From Hyphomicrobiales bacterium (GTDB lineage Bacteria; Pseudomonadota; Alphaproteobacteria; Rhizobiales; Beijerinckiaceae): a DNA stretch of 64,000 nucleotides. The notes beneath the pieces were generated by a model. That model worked only from the letters and a program-made list of their open reading frames with translations. It was not told the origin of the DNA and made no database searches. Shown here in pieces: positions 38,129-46,253 of this stretch (within the stretch, counting starts at the first letter, position 1; each line of letters begins with the position of its first letter). Position numbers and translations under genes: made by a program. Location: positions 62,001-126,000 of the forward strand of contig JAIXZO010000006.1 of NCBI GenBank assembly GCA_027489535.1, given 5' to 3'.

Positions 38129-39085
38129 ATGATCGTGTCGACACGTACCGTTCTCTTCGCTTCAGTTCTTACCGTCGCGGCATTCGGTTCCGGCCTTTCG
38201 GGCGCGCTAGCCGGCGAGGTAGCTCCCGCGATCGGCCCTCTCGGTGCGGGCCCGGCCTTCTCGACCTCGGCCGTTCAGCCGTGGATGAGCCCCGAGATCG
38301 GCGACGCCTGGCGCCAAGGCTACAAGGGCAGCGGAGTCACGATCACGGTGATCGACGACTTCAAGAGCGGCAATTTCTACTATGGCAATTTGGGCGCGGG
38401 GACGCAGGCCCGGAGGCACGGGGAGTGGACGACGCTGGAAGCGAGCATGATCGCGCCGTCGGCCACCATGCGCACTCAGGACTTTTCGTCGGGGCAGACG
38501 GTTCGCCTCAATCGCGGCATGAACGTGCTCAACCTCAGCTACGGCATGTATGCCGCAGCGGGCTACAGCGCCAACCAGATCGGCTGGAGCGCTCAGGAAA
38601 GCTCGATCATCTCCTATGCCAAGAACGGTCAGGCCGTGATTGCGAAGGCGGCGGGCAACGACCGCGTCGCGGTAGGAGCGGCCAACGCAGCCGGTCAGGT
38701 CGATTATTTGAACGCCGCCCTGATCGGCGCTCCGACGGCGATCTTCGTCGGCGCTCTCGATCGCAACGGCACTCCGGAGCAGAAGGCGGCCTTGGCCTAT
38801 TACTCCAACTTCGCGGGCGACAATGTCGCCGTCCAGAACAAGTTCCTGACCGTCGGCGTGCGCGGCGACGTGACCGGGCTGTATGGAACCTCGTTCGCAG
38901 CACCTGTCATAGCGGGTTACGCGGCCGTGCTGGGAAGCAAGTTCACCAAGGCCACGCCGACGCAGATCACCAATCAGCTCCTCACGTCGGCGCGCACCGA
39001 TACGATCCAAGGCTACAGCGCCTCGATCCATGGCCGCGGCGAAGCCAGCATCTCCCGCGCACTCGCCCCGAAGGTCATCCAGTAA
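38129..39085 (+). CDS. Secreted subtilisin-like serine protease (S8 family)
   Basis: Predicted protein of 318 aa. Signal peptide MIVSTRTVLFASVLTVAAFGSGLSGALA. Catalytic residues: Asp in VTITVIDDF (~76), His in RRHGEWTTLEA (~97), oxyanion Asn in IAKAAGNDR (~177), Ser in YGTSFAAPVIAGYAAVL (~255), all present and correctly ordered. The Asp-His spacing is short and the His motif departs from the usual HGTHVAG. There is no C-terminal autotransporter barrel, in contrast to many proteobacterial S8 proteases with a similar GTSFAAP region. Paired with the preceding 193-aa protein. No propeptide domain was recognised. Confidence 0.8.
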   Translation: MIVSTRTVLFASVLTVAAFGSGLSGALAGEVAPAIGPLGAGPAFSTSAVQPWMSPEIGDAWRQGYKGSGVTITVIDDFKSGNFYYGNLGAGTQARRHGEWTTLEASMIAPSATMRTQDFSSGQTVRLNRGMNVLNLSYGMYAAAGYSANQIGWSAQESSIISYAKNGQAVIAKAAGNDRVAVGAANAAGQVDYLNAALIGAPTAIFVGALDRNGTPEQKAALAYYSNFAGDNVAVQNKFLTVGVRGDVTGLYGTSFAAPVIAGYAAVLGSKFTKATPTQITNQLLTSARTDTIQGYSASIHGRGEASISRALAPKVIQ

Positions 39086-40455: not shown

Positions 40456-41271
40456 ATGACCGCTCCGGCCGTCACGGGGGCATCGCCCCGGCCGTCCGCG
40501 GCACTCAAGCGGCTGACGGGCGCCGTGACGTTCCTGCTGCCGCTCGTCGTTCTCGTGATCGTCTGGGAAGCAGCCGTCCGAATCACGCAGGTGCATCCCG
40601 GGGTGTTTCCCGGCGTCGGTGCAGTCATGAAGGCCGGTGCGGAAAGCATCCGCGACGGATCGCTTTGGATGCATGTGGGCGCGAGCATGGGCCGCGTGAT
40701 GCTCGGCACCGTGCTGGCGATCTTGGTCGGCGTGCCTCTGGGCGTGCTGATGGGCGTCAGCCCGGCCGTCTCGACCTTTCTGACCCCGCTGTTCCGTTTC
40801 TTCTCGGTTCTGGCCGGCATCGCGTGGATCCCCATCGCGACCCTGTGGTTCGGCTACGGCTTCGGCGCGATCATCTTCGTGATCTTCAACGCGGTGTTCT
40901 TCGTCGTCGCCTACAACACGCTGCTCGGCGTCTCGGGCATCCCGATCACGTTGCGCAACGCCGCCGCCTCCTTGGGCGCGGGCCCGTGGACGATGCTGCG
41001 GGAGGTGCTGCTGCCCGGCGCGCTGCCCAACATCGTGACCGGCATCCGCACGGGGCTCGGCTTCGCATGGCGCGGGCTGATCGCGGCGGAGATGATCGCG
41101 ACCAATGTCGGGCTCGGCTACATGCTGTTTCTCGCGCGCGACTTCTACCGCACGGAGCTGATCGTGTTCGGCATGGTGGTGATCGGCATTCTCTGGCTGC
41201 TGATCGACCGCCTCATCCTTGCGCCGCTCGAACGCCGCACCATCGAACGCTGGGGACTGGTGAGGTCATGA
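40456..41271 (+). CDS. ABC transporter permease (SsuC/TauC/NrtB-like), first of two
   Basis: Inner-membrane permease of 271 aa. BPD_transp_1 helices, MGRVMLGTVLAILVGVPLGVLMGVSPAVSTFLTPLFRFFSVLAGIAWIPIATLWFGYG, and the ATPase-docking EAA-like loop NAAASLGAGPWTMLREVLLPGALPNIVTGIRTGLGFAWRGLIAAEM are typical of the nitrate/sulfonate/taurine class. Start taken at the ATG at 40456; a GTG at 40429 is possible. Its last four bases overlap the ATG of a second, different permease. Confidence 0.9.
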   Translation: MTAPAVTGASPRPSAALKRLTGAVTFLLPLVVLVIVWEAAVRITQVHPGVFPGVGAVMKAGAESIRDGSLWMHVGASMGRVMLGTVLAILVGVPLGVLMGVSPAVSTFLTPLFRFFSVLAGIAWIPIATLWFGYGFGAIIFVIFNAVFFVVAYNTLLGVSGIPITLRNAAASLGAGPWTMLREVLLPGALPNIVTGIRTGLGFAWRGLIAAEMIATNVGLGYMLFLARDFYRTELIVFGMVVIGILWLLIDRLILAPLERRTIERWGLVRS

Positions 41272-42086
41272 TCGCGGCCGAGAACCCCTTCGCGCGGGTA
41301 TGGGGCGCGTATCTGCGCCTCATCGCGCGCTTTCCGTCCGTCGGGCAGATCGTGCCCTTCCTTCCGTTGATCGCGCTGTGGGCGCTGGTGGTGGAGCTCG
41401 GCGTCTTTCCGCGCGCGTTCTTCCCCGGCCCCGTCGACGTGGTGCAGTCCTTCATCACGCTGACATGGAAGGGCATTCTGCCCGCCTATCTCGAGGACAG
41501 CGTCGTGCGGCTGCTGGTGGGGGCGGCCGTCGGCATCGCCGTCGGCATTCCGCTGGGCCTGCTGGTCGGGCTGAGTTCGAAGGCGCACAAGGCGCTCTGG
41601 CCGATCCTGCTGTTCTTCCAGGCCATCGGCGACATCGCATGGCTGCCGCTCCTGATCATCTGGTTCGGCTTCGGACTGCAGACCATGACCTTCGTCATCG
41701 TCTACACCGTGCTGTTTCCGGTGGTGTTGAACACGGTGCTGGGCGTTCGCTCCATCCCGCTGGAATTGCATCGCGCGGGCCGCAGCCTCGGCGCGCCGCC
41801 TTGGCGCATCGTCACCGAAATCGTCGTGCCGGGCGCGCTGCCCAACATCATCACCGGCCTGCGCAACGGCCTCGGCTACGGCTGGCGCGCGTTGATCGCG
41901 GCGGAGATGATCGTCGGAACCAGCGGCATCGGCTTCCTGATGTTCGACTCGCGGCGCGCGGGCTCGGTCGTCGAAATCCTTCTGGGCATGATCGTGCTCG
42001 GCCTGCTCTGGTATGCGGTCGACGCCTTGATCCTCGCGCCTCTCGAACGCGCGACCGGACAACGTTGGGGGCTTGTCGCACGTTGA
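41268..42086 (+). CDS. ABC transporter permease (SsuC/TauC/NrtB-like), second of two
   Basis: Permease of 272 aa, related to but clearly distinct from the preceding one (shared LLPGALPNI/VVPGALPNI TGxRxGLGxxWRxLIAAEM). The start overlaps the upstream stop (ATGA, 41268-41271). The docking loop is AGRSLGAPPWRIVTEIVVPGALPNIITGLRNGLGYGWRALIAAEMIVG. The usual systems of this class use one permease as a homodimer; two adjacent genes imply a heterodimer or two alternative channels. Confidence 0.9.
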   Translation: MIAAENPFARVWGAYLRLIARFPSVGQIVPFLPLIALWALVVELGVFPRAFFPGPVDVVQSFITLTWKGILPAYLEDSVVRLLVGAAVGIAVGIPLGLLVGLSSKAHKALWPILLFFQAIGDIAWLPLLIIWFGFGLQTMTFVIVYTVLFPVVLNTVLGVRSIPLELHRAGRSLGAPPWRIVTEIVVPGALPNIITGLRNGLGYGWRALIAAEMIVGTSGIGFLMFDSRRAGSVVEILLGMIVLGLLWYAVDALILAPLERATGQRWGLVAR

Positions 42087-42841
42087 AGAGCTTGAGCATC
42101 CGCAATCTCTCGAAGACCTATTTCGACCCCTATGCGGGCAAGCACGTCACCGCGGTGCAGGCCGTGTCGCTCGACGTGCCGGAGGGCGAATTCGTCTGCG
42201 TCGTCGGCCCCTCGGGCTGCGGCAAGACGACGATCCTCAACATGATCGCGGGCTTCATCCCGTTGTCGGGCGGCGAGATCGTGGTGGACGGCCGCTCCGT
42301 CTCGGGCCCCGGCCCGGACCGCGGCGTCGTGTTCCAGTCGCATGCGCTGTTTCCGTGGAAGACGGTGCTGGAAAACGTCGCCTTCGGACCGAAGATGCGC
42401 GGCGTGCCGCTTGCGGACCGCGAGGCCATCGCGCGCGAATATCTGGCGCTGGCCGGGCTCGCCCATGCGGCGGACCGCTATCCGAACGAACTGTCCGGCG
42501 GCATGCAGCAGCGCGTGGGCGTGGCGCGCGCGCTCGCGAACCAGCCCGCCGTGCTGCTGATGGACGAGCCCTTCGCCAGCGTCGACGCGCAGACGCGCAT
42601 GACGCTGCAGGAAGAGCTGACGCGCATATGGCAGGAACGCCGCCCCACGATCATCTTCATCACGCATGACGTGCCGGAGGCCGTGTTCCTCGCCAACCGC
42701 GTCGTGGTGCTGTCGAAGGGGCGCGTGCTGAAGGAGATCGACATCGATCTGCCGCGCCCGCGCGTCTGGGACGCCTTGATCGAAGACGAGCGGTTCAAGA
42801 CCCTTTCGGCGCAGGTGCTGCAGCTGGTGAGGTCGGCATGA
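42083..42841 (+). CDS. ABC transporter ATP-binding protein (SsuB/TauB/NrtD-like)
   Basis: ATPase of 252 aa. Walker A GPSGCGKTTILNMIAG, Q-loop VFQSHALFPWKTVLENVAFG, signature LSGGMQQRVGVARAL, Walker B LLMDEPFASVDAQTR, switch FITHDVPEAVFL. The start is assigned to the TTG at 42083, which overlaps the permease stop as TTGA: no ATG or GTG lies at a suitable place and the protein then begins (M)KSLSIRNLSKTY, a normal N-terminus. Translation is probably coupled. The stop overlaps the next ATG (42838-42841). Confidence 0.9.
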   Translation: MKSLSIRNLSKTYFDPYAGKHVTAVQAVSLDVPEGEFVCVVGPSGCGKTTILNMIAGFIPLSGGEIVVDGRSVSGPGPDRGVVFQSHALFPWKTVLENVAFGPKMRGVPLADREAIAREYLALAGLAHAADRYPNELSGGMQQRVGVARALANQPAVLLMDEPFASVDAQTRMTLQEELTRIWQERRPTIIFITHDVPEAVFLANRVVVLSKGRVLKEIDIDLPRPRVWDALIEDERFKTLSAQVLQLVRSA

Positions 42842-43167
42842 GCCTGCTGCGCGAGGCGCTGCGCTCGGGCAAGACGAAGGCCGTGCTGGCCGTCGCGGCC
42901 GCGCTGATCGCGTTTCAGGTGTTTCAGGAGGCGGCCGCGCCGGGCAAGATCGAGCACCCCCTGCCCCCGACGCGGCGCATCGACGTGATCGTGACCCTGC
43001 CCTTCCCGCCGGAACGCTTTCACATCTCCCGTTTTCAGGAATTCGGACGCGTGTCCGGAGCCGACGGCAACGCCGTCGAAGTACGCGGCGTCCATCGGGA
43101 CGACCTCAAGAAACTGGCGCGGCCCTATTGGGTGAAACGCGTCGAACCGATCATCAAGGGAGGATGA
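42838..43167 (+). CDS. Small membrane-anchored protein of unknown function in the ABC operon
   Basis: Predicted protein of 109 aa starting within the ATPase stop (ATGA) and ending 4 nt before the binding-protein gene. One hydrophobic helix (~15-34, AVLAVAAALIAFQVFQEAAA) followed by ~75 polar residues with a predicted beta/alpha character (RRIDVIVTLPFPPERFHISRFQEFGRVSG). It has no signal-peptidase site, so it is probably a membrane-anchored periplasmic domain. No known family recognised. Strict embedding in the operon implies a role tied to the transporter, such as ligand delivery or regulation; this is inference. Confidence 0.7.
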   Translation: MSLLREALRSGKTKAVLAVAAALIAFQVFQEAAAPGKIEHPLPPTRRIDVIVTLPFPPERFHISRFQEFGRVSGADGNAVEVRGVHRDDLKKLARPYWVKRVEPIIKGG

Positions 43168-43171
43168 AACC

Positions 43172-44242
43172 ATGCTGAACAGACGTTCCGTCATGCTCGG
43201 GGCCGCCGCCGTTCTGGCCGCGCCCGCCGTGCACGTACGCGCCCAAGGCGCGGTCGTGAAGCTCAAGGCCGGGATGGTGACGGGCATCGACCAGATCGGT
43301 CTTCCCGTCGCGCTCGAGCGCGGCTTCTTCGAGAAGTGGGGCCTCGACGTCGTGGTCGCTCGTCCCTACGCAACGGGCGTGGACGCGCTCAACGCCTTGC
43401 AGGCGGGCGAAGCCGAGATCGTGCAGGTCGGCGTACCGATGGTCGGCGCGGTGCTGCGCGGCATGGACCTCGTGGCGCTCGGCAACTACAGCGGCAACGC
43501 CCATCGCATGGGCTCGGACGCCACGATGGCGATGGTCGCGCGCGAGGGCTCCGGCATCGACGCCAAGGACCTCTCCACGCTCAAGGGCAAGAAGATCGCG
43601 GCCTCCTTCGGCACCATCAACCATCTCTACGTGCTGGCGTTGCTAGAAAAGGGCGGCCTGACCCCAGCCGACGTGACCATGGTCAACACCCCGCCGCCGG
43701 ACATGACGGTCGCGCTGCTCGCCAAGGGCATCGACGCCTTCGCCGGCTGGGATCCCTGGCCGATCGTCGCGCAGAAGGACGTGCCCGGCGCCTATCAGGT
43801 GATCCGCGGCGGCGGCGTCATCTCCTATGTCGGCTTCAACGTCGCCACTCGCGGCTGGGTGGAGAAGAACGGCGAGACCATCGTGAAGGCCCTTTCCGCC
43901 CTGTCGGAAGGCGACAAGTGGATGCGCGCCAACCCGCAGGCCGCCGCCCAGATCGCGACGCGCTGGATTCCCGGCCTGAAGCAGGACGTGGCCGAAGCGG
44001 CGATGCAGTTCAACGTGCAGCAGACCGACCGCCGGCTCTCGGCCAACAACTACCGTGCGCTTCACGTGGCGCAGGAGCGGCTGCACAAGCTCGGCTTCAT
44101 CAAGGACACGTTCGACGTCAACAAGCACATCGATTCGCGCTTCATCGTGCAGGTGATGGAGAAGAACCCTGAGCTCTTCTCCGACCTGCCCGCGATCCCG
44201 GCCGACGCCGCCATCAAGGCCGGCTTCGTCTTCAAGCCCTGA
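43172..44242 (+). CDS. ABC transporter substrate-binding protein (NMT1/SsuA/TauA-like)
   Basis: Periplasmic binding protein of 356 aa. The N-terminus MLNRRSVMLGAAAVLAAPAVHVRAQ has a twin-arginine-like RRSVML motif, so export may be by Tat. Mature part: LKAGMVTGIDQIGLPVALERGFFEKWGLDVVVARPYATGVDALNALQAGEAEIVQVGVP, the hallmark of the aliphatic-sulfonate/taurine/nitrate/thiamine-precursor binding group. Also FAGWDPWPIVAQKD. Last gene of the operon, followed by an intrinsic terminator at 44301-44326. Ligand cannot be deduced; no sulfonatase or monooxygenase gene is adjacent. Confidence 0.9.
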   Translation: MLNRRSVMLGAAAVLAAPAVHVRAQGAVVKLKAGMVTGIDQIGLPVALERGFFEKWGLDVVVARPYATGVDALNALQAGEAEIVQVGVPMVGAVLRGMDLVALGNYSGNAHRMGSDATMAMVAREGSGIDAKDLSTLKGKKIAASFGTINHLYVLALLEKGGLTPADVTMVNTPPPDMTVALLAKGIDAFAGWDPWPIVAQKDVPGAYQVIRGGGVISYVGFNVATRGWVEKNGETIVKALSALSEGDKWMRANPQAAAQIATRWIPGLKQDVAEAAMQFNVQQTDRRLSANNYRALHVAQERLHKLGFIKDTFDVNKHIDSRFIVQVMEKNPELFSDLPAIPADAAIKAGFVFKP

Positions 44243-44288: not shown

Positions 44289-44300
44289 CAACAATGATCG

Positions 44301-44326
44301 ACGGAGCCCCTCGGGGCTCCGTTTTT
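44301..44326 (+). terminator. Rho-independent terminator for the 40.5-44.2 kb ABC operon
   Basis: Perfect 10-bp stem (44301-44310 with 44313-44322... read as ACGGAGCCCC / GGGGCTCCGT) with a tight loop, then TTTTT and C on the plus strand. It ends a few bases before the converging GST gene stop. Confidence 0.85.
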
Positions 44327-44331
44327 CGTTC

Positions 44332-45039
44332 TCAGCGGGCCTTCTGGCCGAACAGGATCGCCTGGGCGTCCTTGTCCTGCGAGAGGTCGCGCTTGGTGCG
44401 GTCTTCCTTGTTGACGGCGAAGCCGCGCTGCACGCCGGGGCGGTCGAGCATGGTTTCGAGCCAGCGCTTCACATGCGGGAAGTCGTCGATGTTCTGGCCC
44501 TGCCGCTCATAGCCGCGGATCCAGCCGACGCAGGCCATGTCGGCGATGGAGTAGTCGCCGGCGAGGAATTCACGGTCTTCGAGGCGACGGTTCATCACGC
44601 CGTAAAGGCGGTTCACCTCGTTGGTGTAGCGCTCGATAGCGTAGGGCACCTTTTCCGGCGCGTAGATGCGGAAGTGATGCGTCTGGCCGGCCATGGGGCC
44701 GAGGCCGCCCATCTGCCAAAACAGCCACTGATCGACCTCGACGCGCTTGCGCTCGTCCGTCGACGGATAGAACAGGTTCATCTTGCGGCCGAGATATTGA
44801 AGGATCGCGCCGGACTCGAACACCGAGATGGGTGCGCCCCACGGACCGGCCGGATCGACGATGGCCGGAATCTTGTTGTTGGGCGAAATCGCGAGGAATT
44901 CCGGCTTGAACTGATCGCCCGCGCCGATGTCGATCGGGTGGACGGTGTAGGGGAGCCTGCACTCCTCGAGCATGATGGTGATTTTCCAGCCGTTCGGGGT
45001 CGGCCAGTAATAGAGATCGATCGGAGCTTGGTGCGACAT
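44332..45039 (-). CDS. Glutathione-dependent disulfide-bond oxidoreductase, YfcG-like (Nu-class GST)
   Basis: Cytoplasmic protein of 235 aa. Thioredoxin-like domain ~1-90 with DLYYWPTPNGWKITIMLEECRLPY and ISPNNKIPAIVDPAGP...SVFESGAILQYLGRK. Helical domain with WLFWQMGGLGPMAGQTHHF and YAIERYTNEVNRLYGVMNRRLE. The TPNGWKI segment matches E. coli YfcG/YghU, which use two glutathione molecules and reduce disulfides or peroxides rather than conjugating electrophiles. Adjacent ATG codons at 45042 and 45039; AAGGGG spacing favours 45039. Confidence 0.87.
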   Translation of the reverse strand: MSHQAPIDLYYWPTPNGWKITIMLEECRLPYTVHPIDIGAGDQFKPEFLAISPNNKIPAIVDPAGPWGAPISVFESGAILQYLGRKMNLFYPSTDERKRVEVDQWLFWQMGGLGPMAGQTHHFRIYAPEKVPYAIERYTNEVNRLYGVMNRRLEDREFLAGDYSIADMACVGWIRGYERQGQNIDDFPHVKRWLETMLDRPGVQRGFAVNKEDRTKRDLSQDKDAQAILFGQKAR

Positions 45040-45153: not shown

Positions 45154-45618
45154 TCAAAAGCGCTTCTTGAACCCCGCATGGCTCTTGGCGTAGCCGAGCC
45201 GTTCGTAAAAGCGATGGGCGTCGATGCGTTTGAGGTTGGAGGTCAATTCCAGCACCGCCGCGCCGCGCGCCCGGGCGACGTCTTCGGCATGGGCGACCAT
45301 GCGCGCGCCGATCCCGAGCGAGCGCAGATCTGCACGCACCTGCACGGCGCGGAGTTCGGCATGCAATGCGCCGCGCCCGGTCAAACCCGGCAGGAAGGAC
45401 AGCACGAACGTCCCCACGACAGTTCCCTCGTGTTCGGCCACGAAGACGAGATGATCCGGATGCTCCGCCATGGTGCGGAACGCCGCCTGATACGCCGGGC
45501 GGTTCGCCTCGGTCCATGCATCGCCGTGCCCGCCCGTCGCGTCCGCTTCATGCAGGCGGATGACGGCTTCGAGATCGGCAATCCGCGCCTCTCGGATCAG
45601 GACGTCGTTCACGCTCAC
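45154..45618 (-). CDS. GNAT family N-acetyltransferase
   Basis: Acyltransferase of 154 aa. Acetyl-CoA-binding motif A is VQVRADLRSLGIGARMVAHAEDVARARGAAVLELTSN (R-x-x-G-I-G-x-R/G). The following LKRIDAHRFYERLGYAKSHAGFKKRF is a common GNAT C-terminus. The GTG at 45618 overlaps the upstream GST-fold gene stop (GTGA), which fixes the start. Substrate unknown; amino acids, antibiotics or protein N-termini are all possible. Confidence 0.85.
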   Translation of the reverse strand: MSVNDVLIREARIADLEAVIRLHEADATGGHGDAWTEANRPAYQAAFRTMAEHPDHLVFVAEHEGTVVGTFVLSFLPGLTGRGALHAELRAVQVRADLRSLGIGARMVAHAEDVARARGAAVLELTSNLKRIDAHRFYERLGYAKSHAGFKKRF

Positions 45619-46253
45619 GCCGTGCGGCTTTCCTTCGGCAGCAGCGCCTCGGGCTCGGCGAAGCCGGGGAGTGCCTTGAAGCGCTTTTCCCAAGCGGCCA
45701 GCTCGGGCAGCGCGTCGATGTCGAACCCGCCTTCGCGGGCGTAGTGGATGACGCCGTAAAGGTCGATGTCGGCGATGGTGACCGCCTCTCCCACCAGCCA
45801 ATCGCGACCTGCGAGCATGGATTGCAGCGTCGCCAGAGCCGCCTCGCCTTCGGTGCGGTATTGCGCCAGCACCGCAGGATCGAATTGGCGGAAACCGAGC
45901 GCTGCGGCGCGCGAGCGGTAGATCGGCCCGGCGAGGCGGTCGAATTCCCAGAACATCCATTCGCGGGCGCGAATGCGCTCCATCAAGGTCGCGCCGCCGA
46001 AGCGTCCGAGCTTGTCGGCGAGATATTCGAGGATCGAAGCGGATTGTGCGAGACTGTTGCCGTTGGAATTGTCGACCAGAGCCGGAACTTGACCGAAACG
46101 GTTTACCGCGAGATGAGCGGGGGCCTTGTGCGCACCCTCGCGAAGCGCCACGTGAACGTAGTCGAACGGTTCACCGGCAAGCGACAGCATGAGCGCGACC
46201 TTGTAGACCGGGCCGGACAAGAAGATGCCGTGAAGGGTAAAGCGCGCGGGCAT
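45615..46253 (-). CDS. Glutathione S-transferase family protein
   Basis: Cytoplasmic protein of 212 aa. N-terminal thioredoxin-like part with FTLHGIFLSGPVYKVALMLSLAGEPFDYVHV and AVNRFGQVPALVDN...LAQSASILEYLADKLG (cis-Pro and the SNAIL-like SAS motif). C-terminal helical domain with LATLQSMLAGRDWLVGEAVTIADIDLYGVIHY (conserved N-capping TIADID). The Ser in LSGP is the likely catalytic residue position. Overlaps the GNAT start by 4 nt, so the two form an operon. Confidence 0.87.
   Translation of the reverse strand: MPARFTLHGIFLSGPVYKVALMLSLAGEPFDYVHVALREGAHKAPAHLAVNRFGQVPALVDNSNGNSLAQSASILEYLADKLGRFGGATLMERIRAREWMFWEFDRLAGPIYRSRAAALGFRQFDPAVLAQYRTEGEAALATLQSMLAGRDWLVGEAVTIADIDLYGVIHYAREGGFDIDALPELAAWEKRFKALPGFAEPEALLPKESRTA

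Follow-up and report, generated by a model that had tools for sequence, protein, structure and literature searches.

Importers of the NitT/TauT class of ABC transporters are usually described as consisting of a binding protein, a permease and an ATPase. In the MalFGK2 maltose importer, a heterodimeric permease sits over an ATPase dimer, and a periplasmic loop of MalF touches the binding protein. Two permease components, MsmF and MsmH, are also given for the methanesulfonate importer MsmEFGH in the accessible text of its description (PMC4433239). The locus considered here lies in the window, the whole 64,000-nucleotide stretch of DNA that was analysed, where five tightly packed genes on the forward strand (40456-44242) form an importer block. 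They encode permease A (40456..41271, 271 aa) and permease B (41268..42086, 272 aa), both matching BPD_transp_1 in Pfam and 43% identical to each other, an ATPase with a TTG start (42083..42841, 252 aa, ABC_tran), a small one-helix protein (42838..43167, 109 aa) and an SsuA-like binding protein (43172..44242, 356 aa, NMT1/NMT1_2). An earlier note had read this block from the letters alone as two diverged permeases, an ATPase, the 109-aa protein and a binding protein, and both gene calls and Pfam agree with it; the 4-nt overlaps that it reported (ATGA, TTGA and ATGA, in this order) and the 4-nt gap before the binding protein gene can be read directly from the sequence. Downstream, a hairpin search found a terminator-like hairpin with a T-rich tail on the same strand (44300..44323), which is weak by itself given three sites found versus 2.1 in shuffles; no sigma-70-like promoter was found in the stretch holding it.

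The presence of BPD_transp_1, ABC_tran and an NMT1-type protein within one operon places the importer in the NitT/TauT class, and its two permeases depart from the single-permease layout that is usual for this class without strictly defining it. Among NCBIfam models, the nearest are SaoP, TauC, NtrB and SsuC for the permeases, SaoA for the ATPase and SsuA_fam for the binding protein (119 versus a cut-off of 163.5 bits), and all of these scores fall under the curated cut-offs. Of eight neighbouring genes scanned, one matched nothing and two encode GSTs; the others encode an MFS protein, a subtilase, a VTT protein, a glycosyltransferase and an acetyltransferase.

The small protein has no Pfam match at E<=1 and no acceptable match among PDB sequences, and a search of 25 family members against Pfam and NCBIfam gave no acceptable match either, with no model matching more than one member and a best E of 0.033. 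Together with the single membrane helix of its structural model, this upholds the earlier description of a single-helix protein of no known family. A chance open reading frame is ruled out by homologues that align along its length, at identities of 44-70% for near members and 23-30% for distant ones. The best-conserved points in both the 16- and the 25-member alignments are an F-x-P-E-x-F-H motif, G70 and W98. In the 25-row alignment the motif is mostly lost from the member at locus L107, and is therefore not indispensable.

The model of the small protein (mean pLDDT 90.3, pTM 0.75; 16 sequences) comprises a helix at residues 11-37 and a beta-alpha-beta-beta-alpha-beta domain at residues 47-104, for whose fold we take 'ferredoxin-like' and 'ACT-like' to be suitable labels. 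The charge ahead of the helix exceeds the charge behind it in 26/26 sequences, which agrees with an N-in, C-out orientation with the domain on the periplasmic side. The prediction is thus of a protein that crosses the membrane once, keeps its N-terminus inside and exposes a small ferredoxin-like domain to the periplasm. Among the solved structures listed as matches for residues 46-106, subtilisin propeptides come closest (3whi_B, Z 7.9, rmsd 1.7, 60 aligned), and after them ribosomal protein S6, NapD and several regulatory domains, 2f1f among them. Judging from the model, this resemblance may represent a common arrangement that points to no function. A subtilase gene happens to lie near the operon (38129-39085), and the fold of the small protein is propeptide-like; inspection by eye of the translated starts listed for the other loci showed no subtilase beside them, and a link between the two was set aside.

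The likeness to several ferredoxin-like domains, regulatory ones (2f1f) and protease propeptides included, and the invariance of E59, H62 and Q67 in the 16-row alignment would suit a periplasmic sensor or regulator, whose ferredoxin-like, ACT-like domain binds the substrate or another ligand and thereby inhibits or licenses transport. However, a Foldseek search with the domain gave none at E<=0.001 among the matches listed, the best Z there stays at the 7.9 of the propeptide, so that the likeness may reflect only a common arrangement, and Q67 is no longer conserved in the 25-row alignment. We consider such a regulatory role improbable.

The window's own genome contains one match to the small protein, and a scan of named genomes yielded six loci, from two Hyphomicrobiales MAGs, Rhizobiales TNE-4, two Xenophilus E41 records and Ramlibacter terrae. 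A scan of 397 genomes from the order to which the window belongs gave 20 with a match, one of them judged a chance match, which leaves 19/397 with the protein, the window's own included. The profile matched 11/385 genomes of the class and 6/398 of the phylum (the class, phylum and order samples overlap, and the six phylum matches had already been found), the named relatives pointing to Alphaproteobacteria, and the protein occurs in 4/200 genomes of the Xenophilus family. On plasmids, a search with its sequence retrieved one record, from Agrobacterium, and a second, from Sinorhizobium americanum, was reached through its permease. An occurrence outside a transporter (genome G252, E 8e-4; locus L045, with neither a transporter nor a profile match) was dropped as chance.

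In total, 38 loci with the small protein were compared (the window, L002-L005, L007, L027-L044, L060-L069, L107 and L120-L122); L006, a near copy of L005, was left out of the counts, and L007 from Ramlibacter, whose frames are broken, is part of the 38 and was excluded from the tree, gene-order and distance analyses. Two permeases, one ATPase, one binding protein and the small protein are found together at 38/38 loci, at L007 as fragments. Four gene orders are seen: permease A, permease B, ATPase, small protein, binding protein (order A, 28/38); ATPase, small protein, permease B, permease A, binding protein (order B, 1/38); binding protein, ATPase, small protein, permease B, permease A (order C, 3/38); and binding protein, ATPase, permease B, permease A, small protein (order D, 6/38). 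The small gene stays in the unit in all four, which rules out a misannotated neighbour from another operon, and the binding proteins of nine aligned loci of orders B-D are just 26-33% identical to that of the window. Its retention with the importer through both rearrangement and divergence points to more than a frozen neighbourhood. The earlier statement that it is locked between ATPase and binding protein is true of order A alone. Comparative genomics lends good support to the earlier note's broader claim of a transporter component, though not to the word 'stoichiometric': every one of these loci has the five gene types, and homologues mostly outside transporter loci, which the note had named as grounds for abandoning the claim, did not turn up.

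When 297 genomes of the order were searched with permease A, 22 matched at E<=1e-40, and all 17 of 17 with matches at E<1e-50 carry the small protein in the operon. Below these, at E 2e-45 to 8e-41, come seven loci (L100-L106; five in other genomes, two as second matches), each with one detectable permease and without the small protein. Likewise, 12 of 200 Xenophilus-family genomes matched, the four at E<=3.3e-113 all with the small protein, while ten lower matches outside such operons (L135-L144, E 9e-47 to 9e-41) have one permease and no small protein. Absence of the small gene from orthologous operons, the other outcome that would have told against the earlier claim, was accordingly not seen in the 17/17 and 4/4 genomes with a close permease A. 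Plasmid relatives lack it in 5/5 cases (L108-L112, taken from the top of a 118-record list and not at random; six records besides that of Agrobacterium were examined). Over the relatives beyond the branch as a whole, the profile finds the small protein in 0/22 and a single permease is detectable in 21/22, with permeases detected by phmmer to E 1e-5, a limit that a more diverged second copy would escape. In the samples searched, the small protein is restricted to one permease branch.

The exception among these relatives is L111, an Azospirillum oryzae operon with two permeases and no small protein by profile. MsmEFGH is probably another such importer, no small protein being named for it in the accessible text of PMC4433239, and the notion that every two-permease importer needs the small protein is ruled out by L111 together with that description. 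The second permease, which the earlier note contrasted with a single-permease standard, is not unique, since MsmEFGH (PMC4433239, accessible text) and the Azospirillum operon share the feature.

A quick maximum-likelihood tree was built from 81 permeases of 34 loci with the small protein and 12 controls (L007, L120-L122 and L135-L144 were not included). The permeases of these operons separate from the controls (SH-aLRT 97), and all 34 B-type permeases form one group (SH-aLRT 97), while the A-type permeases form no single supported group. Long branches, that of L107 above all, leave the details unsure, and the program warns of possible false joins. The separation and the single B group point to one old duplication, and on these sequences it is likely that a single permease duplication is common to the operons with the small protein. 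The two L111 permeases pair with each other (SH-aLRT 96), and so were probably doubled separately from those of the branch.

We also compared pairwise distances of the small protein with those of its partners as partial correlations with the others removed, which lack a proper null and include a few over-long ATPase and small-protein segments. Over 27 order-A loci, the small protein tracks permease B best (partial r 0.36, jackknife 0.31-0.44), followed by the ATPase (0.27, jackknife 0.19-0.39, overlapping the range of permease B), with 0.06 for permease A and -0.06 for the binding protein. With all 37 loci included, the ATPase ranks first (0.26), ahead of permease B (0.10), permease A (0.06) and the binding protein (0.04). 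We regard the tie to permease B as a weak hint. That the small protein follows one two-permease branch, and that its order-A distances vary together with those of permease B and the ATPase, could also be expected of an assembly or stability factor, which would pair or protect the unlike permeases and stay outside the working pump. Yet at least one other two-permease importer manages without the protein, and such a factor has no obvious need for a conserved periplasmic domain; we hold this explanation to be unlikely.

The nil correlation with the binding protein in order A speaks against a tight fit between the two. It bears as well on the idea that the small protein acts in the periplasm on the substrate or the binding protein, as a tether, chaperone or processing factor, and is merely co-expressed with the pump. 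The two genes do adjoin in 28/38 loci, but they are not adjacent in orders B, C and D and no residual distance correlation connects their products, which makes this a very unlikely role.

The binding protein itself was modelled from 22 sequences (mean pLDDT 90.2). Among the matches listed, the best are SsuA (3e4r, Z 32.1, rmsd 2.4, 287 aligned), NrtA (2g29, Z 32.4, rmsd 2.6, 306 aligned), CmpA and TauA, with thiamin, pyrimidine and PQQ binders lower. The likeliest guess from the class of the protein and the matches of its model is a small anion or a sulfonate-like ligand. The enzymes beside the operon vary from locus to locus: of ten neighbour genes chosen by eye, Pfam assigns five (at L005, L027, L031, L041 and L061) to short-chain dehydrogenases and the other five, singly, to Fe-ADH, GST, molybdopterin dehydrogenase, class-V aminotransferase and amidase. 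Deduction of the substrate from neighbouring enzymes was dropped, because this eye-picked set is too mixed and not a fair sample.

What could be the role of a fifth protein in such an importer? The genomic pattern makes it probable that the protein is a true additional component of the importer. Our tentative preference, at somewhat less than even confidence, is for a periplasm-facing auxiliary subunit dedicated to the branch of importers with heterodimeric permeases. Against this reading it must be said that conserved operons can also hold helper proteins that are not subunits, and that the two-permease importer of L111 exists without it. If it is a subunit, the channel would probably be a heterodimer of the two diverged permeases, against which the helix of the small protein may pack, perhaps on the side of permease B. 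Its periplasmic domain would then be placed at the mouth of the channel where the binding protein docks, and, as a part provided in trans, might steer docking or act as the gate of the asymmetric channel, in the way that the MalF loop serves in cis. The transported substrate, to go by the class of the binding protein, is probably a small organic anion. More tentatively still, the small protein may found a new subunit class, auxiliary but obligate, among type I ABC importers, composed of one helix and a periplasmic ferredoxin-like domain, born with the permease duplication and acting in trans as a gate or docking clamp. A branch that retains a fifth part through several rearrangements would provide a handle on the control of heterodimeric permeases. 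Neither Pfam nor NCBIfam describes the small protein of this five-part branch, and a subunit of this kind would allow proteins now labelled hypothetical to be named, among them those in the Agrobacterium and Sinorhizobium plasmid records.

Compared with SsuABC, TauABC and NrtABC, the window importer has permeases, an ATPase and an SsuA-like binding protein of matching families, and differs from them in having two diverged permeases where those have one, and in the small protein. Its scores fall short of the cut-offs for SsuABC proper (SsuC 103.9 and 110.1 versus 347 bits; ATPase 185.2 versus 395 bits). The top named models are SaoP for permeases A and B (155 and 148.5 bits, cut-off 295) and SaoA for the ATPase (257.4 bits, cut-off 360; NCBIfam NF040733 and NF040729 for SaoP/SaoA), and scores under these cut-offs indicate that the window proteins are not members of SaoP or SaoA. 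Subtilisin propeptides and ferredoxin-like domains resemble the small protein in fold at the level expected of a common arrangement, with no sequence relation found. In MalFGK2 the periplasmic module is a loop of MalF in cis, whereas here a separate protein would supply it, a parallel offered as analogy only. A literature search, judged by titles and abstract openings and with subscription journals mostly outside its reach, gave no description of such a subunit. By its description, in the accessible text of PMC4433239, MsmEFGH shares with the window importer a layout in which one ATPase and one binding protein accompany two permeases. That text mentions no small protein, whereas the window importer has one, and the msmABCD monooxygenase genes that adjoin MsmEFGH have no counterpart among the eight neighbours scanned at the window operon. 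Two-permease importers of this class are thus already in print, and the novelty lies in the fifth protein and in its association with a single permease branch.

On a plasmid of Agrobacterium sp. (L069, NZ_CP047389.1), where the gene order is ATPase, SMALL (the 109-aa membrane protein), permease B, permease A and binding protein, annotated genes for a sulfatase-like hydrolase and a formylglycine-generating enzyme family protein lie near the transporter operon, and these neighbours may hint at a sulfate ester or a sulfonate as its substrate. In the window, two glutathione S-transferase genes on the minus strand (44332-45039 and 45615-46253), with a GNAT gene between them, run convergent to the operon. 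A glutathione S-transferase gene also lies directly downstream in L003, and in L004 a similar reading frame, as judged by eye, is found at greater distance.

In three of the four loci L065-L068, one base separates the permease A stop from the SMALL start codon; in L066 the spacing is 16 bases, with a different start chosen. Little of the F-x-P-E-x-F-H motif survives in the Sinorhizobium SMALL (L107:5687-6016), which nevertheless retains the conserved glycine and tryptophan; its operon is adjoined by cyclase-family and carboxymuconolactone decarboxylase-family genes. In Ramlibacter terrae (L007, CP053418.1), the SMALL, ATPase and binding protein genes have broken frames, reflecting either sequencing errors or decay.

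Two genes upstream of the window operon, whose SMALL has a fold resembling that of subtilisin propeptides, lies a subtilase gene (Peptidase_S8, 38129-39085), a proximity that is probably coincidental.
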